Shown here: positions 24,407 to 25,486 of the stretch, in pieces
Position numbering within the stretch: position 1 is the first letter of the stretch
Layout of the letters: each line of letters opens with the position of its first letter
NCBI GenBank assembly: GCA_003565625.1
Contig: PXBD01000042.1
Span: 1 to 41,931, forward strand
Reading direction: 5' to 3'
DNA length: 41,931 nt
Origin: Gammaproteobacteria bacterium
GTDB taxonomy: Bacteria; Pseudomonadota; Gammaproteobacteria; Xanthomonadales; Wenzhouxiangellaceae
The notes under the pieces: generated by a model
Databases searched by the model: none
What the model saw: only the letters and a program-made list of their open reading frames with translations
What the model was told of the DNA's origin: nothing
Program-made: the position numbers and the translations under genes

Positions 24407-24482
<76 letters not shown>

Positions 24483-24487
24483 GGAAG

Positions 24488-24564
24488 TGGGGTGAGCGAC
24501 GGGGATTGAACCCGCGACCTCTGGAGCCACAATCCAGTGCTCTACCAACTGAGCTACGCCCACC
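24488..24564 (-). tRNA. tRNA-His(GUG)
   Basis: The anticodon loop TTGTGGC gives GUG. The acceptor is GTGGGCG/CGCTCAC. The discriminator is C opposite an encoded extra 5' G (position 24564), the hallmark of tRNA-His. CCA is encoded. Confidence 0.97.
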
Positions 24565-24658
24565 ACAGGCAAAATTGTTTATTCAAGCCGGGTATTGTAA
24601 CTCGCCCCGGCCAGTCTGGCGCGCCCGGCAGGACTCGAACCTGCAACCGCCGGCTTAG

Positions 24659-25352
24659 CATACCAGCTACCGCTTTCGCGGCCTCCCACCCATGGCGGGA
24701 GTTTGTGGTCTGGACTCTCTCTTCACCATCTCAGGTGCTGCACATATAGTCTCTACGGAACCCGTCGAAAATCCTTCGCGAGATGCACCCCTCGCGACTG
24801 GAGATTCTTGGTCGCCCTTACCCTCAGACAGGCCGAGTAACCGAACATTTGGGGATCAATGTAGTAACACTCGTCCGTATCAGGGCAGTACACGCAGTAG
24901 ATGTCGACCTCGCTTTTGTCGACTGGCACGCTATGGGTCCCATTTCTATCGGCCCAGGAAGTCCAAAACTTGACTTCCAATTTCCCCGTGCGATCCAGCT
25001 TGCGGTACTTCACCTGTATCCGAACGAAGCGACCTCCCCGATACGCCACTAAGTCAAAAGGGGCGTGTTCAGTCATTGGCAGCAGGATGGAAAACCCCTG
25101 CTCAAACAAATCCACCTGAGCCTTCAGGACTCCCAGGTCACCCTTGTCCTTGGTGAGATGCATGGCAGTCAATCGAATCCACTGCCCACGATCGTACACC
25201 ATCGCACGCGGTAACCGACGGTTTCCACGGGATTGCCATCAGCCGGCTGTTGCCGCTGTTAAGGTTTCCCCGTTACGGTGCAGTCCACCCTGACGGTTCC
25301 GTTTCCCGCCAGGGGCTCCTTTTGTGACACAACCCTAAGGCTGCGCTGCTCA
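24659..25352 (-). ncRNA. Group I self-splicing intron in tRNA-Arg(UCU)
   Basis: The intron is 694 nt and begins after a U (25353) and ends in G (24659), as group I introns do. Pairings I could draw, minus strand: P1 is exon CUU plus UGAG with CUUAGGG (25339-25333), with a U-G pair at the splice site. P10 is 3' exon CUAAG with CUUAG of the same guide. P3 is CUGCAC (25283-25278) with GUGCAG (24743-24738). P4 is ACGGGG (25273-25268) with UCCCGU (25232-25227). P6 is 25226-25216 with 24767-24757 (10 of 11 pairs). P7 is GACU (24751-24748) with AGUC (24716-24713). P8 is CACC/GGUG. P9 is a long stem, followed by a CCGC-GAAA-GCGG tetraloop hairpin. The endonuclease gene loops out of P6. Bacterial tRNA introns known from the literature are mostly subgroup IC3; I infer the same here. 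Confidence 0.92.
24753..25163 (-). CDS. Intron-encoded PD-(D/E)XK homing endonuclease
   Basis: The 136-residue product has the nuclease core pattern KGDLGVLKAQVDLFEQGF, then PFD (Asp37) and RIQVKY (Gln50, Lys52), a PD-(D/E)XK site with Gln at the acidic position. From memory this resembles group I intron-associated endonucleases of the I-Ssp6803I type. Such enzymes cut intronless alleles and so spread the intron. I start at the ATG at 25163 because the family-like sequence begins there (MHLTKDKGDLG). An ATG at 25202 would add 13 residues. No good ribosome site is seen. The last codons form the P6 3' strand, and the TAG stop adjoins the P7 strand. Base composition looks less GC-rich than the neighbouring genes. 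Confidence 0.82.
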   Translation of the reverse strand: MHLTKDKGDLGVLKAQVDLFEQGFSILLPMTEHAPFDLVAYRGGRFVRIQVKYRKLDRTGKLEVKFWTSWADRNGTHSVPVDKSEVDIYCVYCPDTDECYYIDPQMFGYSACLRVRATKNLQSRGVHLAKDFRRVP

Positions 25353-25409
25353 AAGGCCGATGCTCTATCCAGTTGAGCTACGGGCGCCAAGTCAAAAATC
25401 GTTTCAAAC

Positions 25410-25486
25410 TGGTCGGGGCGGCAGGATTTGAACCTGCGACCTACTGCTCCCAAAGCAGTTGCGCTACCAGGCTGCGCTACGCCCCG
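25410..25486 (-). tRNA. tRNA-Pro(UGG)
   Basis: This is a 77-nt cloverleaf with acceptor CGGGGCG/CGCCCCG, anticodon stem ACTGC/GCAGT and loop TTTGGGA, giving anticodon UGG. CCA is encoded. It is the first gene after a strong promoter and precedes the intron-bearing tRNA-Arg. Confidence 0.97.

Follow-up and report, generated by a model that had tools for sequence, protein, structure and literature searches.

Group I introns in bacterial tRNA genes have long been known. The cyanobacterial tRNA-Leu(UAA) intron, a member of subgroup IC3, lies between anticodon positions 34 and 35 after CUU, has a 3-bp P1 (CUU with GAG), and is not known to carry an endonuclease; SegB, an enzyme of T4-like phages, belongs to the GIY-YIG family. 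The insertion site and P1 of the intron described below presumably resemble those of the tRNA-Leu(UAA) intron, a likeness by description and in another tRNA.

The closest published gene was the tRNA-Arg-TCT of Candidatus Thiomargarita nelsonii Bud S10 and Beggiatoa BOGUAY, reported to contain a putative group I intron whose structure and type were left undetermined by the authors, with MacGregor 2013a cited (PMC4853749). This gene and that in the window (the whole stretch of DNA analysed, 41,931 nucleotides) shared the isoacceptor, the placement in Gammaproteobacteria, and a putative group I intron. The Beggiatoaceae intron was presumably ORF-less, since the span given was 324 bases, and the available part of PMC4853749 mentioned neither an endonuclease in the intron nor free-standing relatives, whereas the window intron contained an ORF. 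The preliminary description of the window correctly reported an intron in tRNA-Arg(UCU) but was unaware of this published case.

The tRNA-fMet intron of Synechocystis PCC 6803 carries a PD-(D/E)XK ORF in P1, with a 61-nt overlap of P1/P2 (PMC3073962, as far as its available part goes). Like the window intron, it is of group I, interrupts a tRNA gene, and encodes an endonuclease belonging to that fold family, but the window differed in the tRNA (tRNA-Arg) and in the ORF location (P6a loop, with the stop in the core), and the two proteins showed distant similarity only (phmmer E 5e-4). The different ORF locations, P1 versus P6a, suggested separate entry of the two endonucleases. The tRNAscan-SE 2.0 paper listed, in the part available, 36 genomes with interrupted fMet or Ile2 genes (PMC8450103). 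SegB was described, in the part of PMC13096335 available, as a free-standing homing endonuclease associated with a region of tRNA genes; it differed from the tRNA-Arg(UCU) endonuclease in being associated with other tRNAs and with no intron. Collaborative (trans) homing, in which a free-standing endonuclease and an ORF-less intron share one site, was described in two phage systems (PMC3984707, available in part), and the same paper noted little evidence for bacterial introns moving between species. The open-licence literature yielded no paper on relatives of the present enzyme beside tRNA-Arg(UCU), which does not prove that none exists; what seemed to be new was the endonuclease and its association with tRNA-Arg(UCU), not the interrupted gene itself.

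The interrupted tRNA-Arg(UCU) gene and its endonuclease ORF

The tRNA-Arg(UCU) gene was interrupted, with both halves present at 24617-25387 on the reverse strand and 694 nt between them, as the preliminary description had it. The gene and its context were composed of the following features:

25410..25486 (-): tRNA-Pro(UGG), upstream context; conserved, adjoining the uninterrupted gene in relatives too
25353..25387 (-): tRNA-Arg(UCU) 5' exon, 35 nt, ending ...CGGCCUU with U34 last
24659..25352 (-): group I intron, 694 nt, starting after U34, last base G
24753..25202 (-): 149-aa predicted PD-(D/E)XK endonuclease ORF (PF11645), in the P6a loop
24617..24658 (-): tRNA-Arg(UCU) 3' exon, 42 nt including CCA, starting C35 U36
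24488..24563 (-): tRNA-His(GUG), downstream context; conserved neighbour
24407..24482 (-): tRNA-Lys(CUU), downstream context; frequent neighbour

The joined exons gave a 77-nt tRNA with a 7-bp acceptor stem and the anticodon loop CU-UCU-AA. The break lay at anticodon 34/35 as first described, and relatives had these two exons interrupted at an identical position; the expected U before the intron and G as last intron base were found in the window and in 42/42 introns (the U being within the exon string used for matching). The split was not due to chance, because relatives had the same exon break and the pairing of the core was far above column shuffles (see below). The prediction that a gene finder would overlook such a gene was borne out by ARAGORN at default settings, which made no call for it; nor was it recovered from the window with the Rfam tRNA model at the gathering threshold. 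At homologous loci outside the window, the intron option of ARAGORN gave tRNA-Arg(tct) and a 694-nt intron for L041 but displaced the break at others (for example, L040 was called Ser(gct)).

A total of 42 introns were gathered via a match to both exons: those of 37 of the best 80 endonuclease loci (see below), the window, L006, L007, L155, and L156. The alignment contained 41 of them, with the ORF region excised and L057 omitted (P6 anchor not found). Core pairing was present in 2020/2144 cells, compared to 1729 in the best of 200 column shuffles; this total included helix P9.0, which was counted with a wrong 3' partner and is disregarded below, and the alignment rows were related, for which neither the shuffles nor the Fisher tests reported below allow. 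Across the 41 introns, the helices were paired as follows:

P2: 365/368 cells paired; both-side changes at 9/9 pairs
P3: 246/246 cells paired; both-side changes at 5/6 pairs
P4: 205/205 cells paired; both-side changes at 2/5 pairs
P5: 137/160 cells paired; both-side changes at 3/4 pairs
P6: 153/164 cells paired; both-side changes at 0/4 pairs
P6a: 182/204 cells paired; both-side changes at 5/5 pairs
P7: 204/205 cells paired; both-side changes at 2/5 pairs
P8: 164/164 cells paired; both-side changes at 3/4 pairs
P9: 182/203 cells paired; both-side changes at 5/5 pairs
P9.1: 163/164 cells paired; both-side changes at 4/4 pairs

This covarying core supported a group I intron inside the anticodon of tRNA-Arg(UCU). 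The "full core" of the preliminary description was confirmed with corrections: P3, P4, P7, and P8 covaried, but P7 of the window itself had one A.G mismatch (see below), and P6 was nearly invariant across the 41 introns, with no covariation and with pairing no better than that of the shuffles. For P1, the exon-end CUU could pair with GAG or GGG of GGAGCY or GGGGCC in 42/42 introns, and this pairing placed U34.G at the 5' splice site. The 5-bp P10 (CUUAG/CUAAG) was indeed present in the window but was conserved in just 2/42 introns, and it was dropped as support for a ribozyme.

The Rfam group I model RF00028, proposed earlier as a check, matched neither the window (E up to 1) nor the genome it came from, and it gave no match in the short-intron loci L155, L080, L086, and L007 (E up to 0.1). 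The ORF-less L156 matched this model over positions 1-253 (34.2 bits, E 1.7e-5; gathering score of 50 not reached); since the ORF interrupts the model and ORF-less L156 matched end to end, the miss in the window, although it was an outcome that the preliminary description had named as refuting, was not taken as refutation, and the group I assignment is based on covariation rather than on RF00028. Weak Rfam matches to YrlA and Ms_IGR-2 were rejected as tRNA-like or chance, being far under their gathering scores.

The preliminary description of the intron was accurate in outline but mentioned neither the P7 mismatch nor the 149-aa ORF that filled most of the intron. The ORF matched Pfam PF11645 (PD-(D/E)XK) with E 8.4e-36 and the solved endonuclease 2ost with phmmer E 5e-4, and 2ost is, we assume, I-Ssp6803I, the enzyme of the Synechocystis tRNA-fMet intron. 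The conserved region began near residue 14 (25163), and the stop codon fell within the ribozyme core sequence CCGUAGAGACUA. D50 and Q63 were kept in 36/36 intronic and 41/41 free copies, K65 was kept in 36/36 intronic and 40/41 free copies, and all three residues, which we take to be catalytic in PD-(D/E)XK endonucleases, aligned with the D and QVK of 2ost; a homing endonuclease is the probable product. Comparison with L041 gave dN 0.062 and dS 0.752, evidence in the sequence itself of purifying selection on the ORF. The ORF had 54% G+C, versus 64% in the window, and its nearest named relatives were from Wenzhouxiangella, including strain W. limi C33 228. Several homologous ORFs were broken: L002/L040 by one stop, L006 by three stops, and L007 and G393 by internal deletions. 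L008 (G049) was rejected as a relative, its 31-residue match at 45% being taken as chance.

The sequence comparison was also applied to 30 genomes of the same genus (including that of the window): the intron was found in eight (G000, G004, G008, G013, G014, G017, G027, and G028), an intact tRNA-Arg(UCU) in 15, and neither in seven. In the carriers, the ORF was absent from G013 and G014, deleted in G028, and interrupted by stops in G004 and G027. The 15 intact genes were 96-99% identical to the spliced window tRNA. The best 30 uninterrupted loci (from 101 relatives) all read UCU, and 29/30 were clustered with tRNA-Pro(UGG) and tRNA-His (L148 had no tRNA neighbour). The split between intron-bearing and intact genes at the same tRNA cluster indicated that the intron has been gained and lost at a single position.

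Four further loci were irregular: (i) in L159 (G097:C128), the contig stopped within the tRNA-Arg anticodon loop; (ii) in L066:2240-3100 and L075:2240-3100, core and ORF were present and one or both tRNA exons were missing or cut, with the joins near GGTTCGAA-like motifs, reflecting either real decay or assembly error; and (iii) L069, from a MAG labelled Halobacteria archaeon, held the element with a His-Lys-Leu tRNA run of gammaproteobacterial style and was probably mis-binned.

Relatives of the endonuclease inside, beside, and without the intron

The best 80 of 120 endonuclease relatives found in genome contigs were analysed: 35 were located inside a tRNA-Arg(UCU) intron, 37 were intron-free, two (L080 and L086) lay just outside an ORF-less tRNA-Arg(UCU) intron, and six were not placed (L051, L067, L085, and L069 cut by contig ends; L066 and L075 with damaged exons). 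Duplicate genomes (L002=L040, L003=L041, L004=L043, L005=L042, L081=L185, L094=L180, L095=L179, L096=L181, L102=L182, and L103=L184) were counted once in the 41-intron alignment, the protein tree, and the count of 41 free-standing loci. The intronic copies were hosted by many gammaproteobacteria and, with one locus each, by Acidobacteriota, Bacteroidota, and Rhodothermota.

The free-standing set (n=41) was composed of the 37 intron-free loci among the best 80 relatives, two Nocardioides loci, and two phage loci; its hosts were Actinomycetota, one Planctomycetota, one gammaproteobacterium, and the two phages. An intact tRNA-Arg(UCU) lay 12 to 299 nt from the matched stretch in 41/41 loci, being the nearest tRNA in 39/41 and unaccompanied by any other tRNA at the locus in 33/41, and the endonuclease was opposite to it in orientation in 37/41.

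Viral contigs gave 41 loci via a broader alignment, a few of them partial matches only. An intact tRNA-Arg(UCU) was found within 400 nt of 33/41 of these relatives (some contigs being near-copies), namely 20/21 at >=55% identity and 13/20 below, and it was the sole tRNA found at several loci, e.g., L257, L274, and L293. A scan of viral contigs with narrower patterns detected no relative, probably since these patterns were fitted to intronic copies; 29 phage records matched, five of which were inspected, and a plasmid search recovered no endonuclease relative.

Distant viral relatives were seen beside other tRNAs: (i) tRNA-Ala about 200 nt away in HATV-2; (ii) tRNA-Met(CAU), about 24 nt ahead of a distant PD-(D/E)XK-like gene in a Salmonella kuttervirus (L176:1399-1986), this tRNA resembling the Met tRNA type that holds the Synechocystis intron; and (iii) tRNA-Ser(GCU), at 35 and 12 nt from L285:3001-3393 and L286:3001-3411, respectively, with CU of its anticodon in common with UCU, a possible case of retargeting. 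The distant relative in EFP01 had no annotated tRNA close by.

Free endonucleases might adjoin tRNA-Arg(UCU) simply because tRNA genes are general hot spots of insertion and exchange, with the anticodon not being the target. The richness of phage tRNA clusters (10 other tRNAs in L175 and 24 in all in L284) and the distant relatives by tRNA-Met(CAU), tRNA-Ala, tRNA-Ser(GCU), or no annotated tRNA would fit this explanation, but it is unlikely, given that the UCU gene adjoined every one of the 41 free-standing loci and was commonly their sole tRNA, that it was the only tRNA found in viral loci such as those named above, and that this anticodon is also where the intron of that lineage lies. An endonuclease lineage bound to the tRNA-Arg(UCU) gene, with or without an intron, is accordingly the reading followed below.

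In the family Bacillaceae (193 genomes), eight genomes matched the intron-bearing tRNA over nearly its full length, and the endonuclease was found in five, one of which (G393) had an internally deleted remnant; 5/5 endonuclease genomes also held the intron (Fisher 2.6e-8, descent ignored). In all five, the remnant included, the endonuclease followed the 3' exon on the downstream side of the tRNA, and it was also outside the intron in L086. Possible traces of the endonuclease C-terminus were detected in the Bacillaceae introns L229 (27.3 bits) and L086 (21.2 bits), compared to a best score of 19.6 bits and a 95% point of 17.3 among 360 shuffled introns; L222-L227 scored 17.7-19.2 bits and L228 13.1. 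Because these two traces exceeded the best shuffle, the ORF was probably once inside the intron in at least two Bacillaceae introns. This arrangement resembled collaborative homing in that the endonuclease gene was linked to an ORF-less intron but not inside it; it differed in concerning a chromosomal tRNA gene instead of phages, a PD-(D/E)XK enzyme, a putative shared target, and traces of a lost internal ORF, and the window itself differed in having its ORF inside the intron, not outside. A ninth Bacillaceae genome contained an orphan tRNA-Arg 3' half (L230, G278:C7 near 490235-490300), which was preceded by intron-end-like bases and adjoined unrelated coding sequence.

The endonuclease tree was built from 86 proteins and 135 columns. 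The intronic and free labels needed four changes on it, all four forced by well-supported branches. The free gammaproteobacterial L078 grouped with intronic L071 and L073 (support 97/90), and the intronic acidobacterial L087 was nested in a free group of Actinomycetota and Planctomycetota (96/86), single placements being unsure because columns were few and a number of terminal branches, that of L087 included, were long. Traffic between the intronic and free states in both directions would be the simplest reading. A one-way story, in which a free gene enters the intron, was rejected in view of L078 nested among intronic copies and the two Bacillaceae introns with traces of a lost ORF.

Within Nocardioides, the endonuclease was present in 8/147 genomes and adjoined the UCU tRNA in 8/8; compared to gene-free relatives, the flanks displayed a native syntenic locus with an added gene (both sides in L182 and L184; one side in L185). 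The anticodon stem CGGCCUUCUAA, which was the intron-split site in 39/42 introns, was the commonest stem in endonuclease-free Nocardioides (77/134) and was found in 0/8 carriers (Fisher 0.0015; 142/147 genomes with a pattern match, species not independent, and five distinct carrier stems). It was also absent from the other free or viral carriers compared. Four Nocardioides carriers had GUCAC in common with eight non-carriers, and GAGCC and CGGAU were likewise present in non-carriers; since carrier stems recurred in non-carriers, the stem does not mark the endonuclease gene. The stem ACGCC adjoined the free copy L078, yet it was intron-split in Bacillaceae L218, L219, and L221, and thus it was not plainly unsuited to the intron. 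Free copies may be hidden from their own enzyme by such a changed anticodon stem, less surely than copies hidden by an intron.

Remnants of tRNA genes were sought beside loci with an intact tRNA, and clear ones were found in L091 only. This Planctomycetota locus (L091:1618-2216) contained a complete tRNA-Arg(UCU) plus the endonuclease, then an orphan 3' half starting from (G)UAAUCC at the anticodon, and behind it a second tRNA 3' fragment. Such a layout, seen at a single locus, would be the residue expected of a cut at the intron site that was repaired by a foreign tRNA-plus-gene cassette. Taken jointly, these observations may describe a tRNA-Arg(UCU)-specialist lineage spread over phages and seven bacterial phyla, with more than one switch between the intronic and free states and with self-protection by the intron or by a co-converted non-cognate stem; this joint reading is offered tentatively, its chances of proving wrong being slightly the greater.

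Proposed splicing and homing, and AGA decoding

The window very probably holds a group I intron with a homing endonuclease, whose lineage is tied to the tRNA-Arg(UCU) anticodon whether inside the intron, beside it, or without it. In the proposed mechanism, the transcript would fold, the anticodon stem together with a short P1 (CUU paired to GAG, U.G being the splice-site pair) would keep the exons in place, and guanosine-initiated splicing would restore tRNA-Arg(UCU). The endonuclease would cut intronless tRNA-Arg(UCU) genes at the anticodon, and repair would copy the intron in. Judged from its relatives, the endonuclease lineage would stay bound to this gene with or without the intron; its site would be hidden by the intron where the ORF is inside or just outside it and, less surely, by an altered anticodon stem in the free-standing case.

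The P7 strands of the window were located as follows, by sequence and alignment:

24747..24751 (-): P7 5' strand, GACUA
24713..24717 (-): P7 3' strand, GAGUC

A24747/G24717 formed A.G, the sole unpaired P7 cell among the 41 introns; the other 40 introns paired at the G24717 position (39 A-U and one U-A). Elsewhere, GACUA/UAGUC was changed to GGCCA/UGGUC in L071, L073, and L087 and to GACUU/AAGUC in L115. Since this mismatch was unique, the window copy of the intron may be impaired and may splice poorly.

The genome of the window (2.8 Mb, 95 contigs, 89.5% complete) had other Arg tRNAs reading AGG or CGN, as earlier noted: CCT and ACG in the window and CCG elsewhere in the assembly. The search that had been proposed for a second tRNA-Arg(UCU) found none among the 34 tRNAs detected by RF00005, all of them with anticodons assigned, and so the suggested dependence of AGA decoding on ribozyme splicing is plausible, although a second UCU gene could be missing from an assembly of this completeness. 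The best uninterrupted matches to the spliced tRNA in three intron-bearing genomes of higher completeness, G017 (87%), G027 (87%), and G059 (86%), were CCG, CCG, and CCT tRNAs, respectively. AGA accounted for 6/547 Arg codons in 13 window ORFs, which pointed to a low demand for the AGA tRNA.

The same data bear on a decaying copy, in which splicing would be lost through the P7 mismatch, the tRNA gene would have become a pseudogene, and AGA would either be hardly used or depend on another tRNA absent from the assembly. A mismatch unique among the introns, the rarity of AGA, the incomplete assembly, and the broken state of some homologous ORFs would all accord with decay; this is nevertheless distinctly unlikely, as the tRNA halves were perfect, the ORF was open with dN far under dS, no second UCU tRNA was found among the 34, and P7 may withstand a lone terminal mismatch, which could also be a sequencing error. 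A third possibility, that the ORF no longer promotes homing and is retained to assist splicing or to serve the host in some other way, would be in line with purifying selection and with the overlap of the ORF end and the ribozyme core, but we regard it as very unlikely: the catalytic residues were conserved, the ORF was missing from the otherwise intact-looking introns L155 and L156, and the gene was intron-free in many genomes, with a patchy distribution. The chance that the gene is an assembly artefact or holds an archaeal-type, protein-spliced tRNA intron is negligible, for no supporting point was found, the Halobacteria-labelled L069 had gammaproteobacterial tRNA neighbours and tree position, the group I core covaried, and many separate assemblies, that of W. 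limi C33 228 among them, had this structure.

For a mobile group I intron tied to tRNA-Arg(UCU), the part unexpected to specialists is the lineage-wide tie to this gene, inside and outside introns and in phages. If true, AGA decoding in some gammaproteobacteria, many of them known from MAGs only, would run through a ribozyme that is missed by a standard tRNA finder, and the tRNA inventories of such genomes would be incomplete. The intronic, adjacent, and free forms at one tRNA gene make the association of intron and endonuclease directly testable, and their occurrence in chromosomes and phages suggests phages as carriers. If the specialist reading is true, these loci would be chromosomal, testable intermediates in the formation and breakdown of mobile introns, and a rare-codon tRNA would be a recurrent site of selfish allele replacement.
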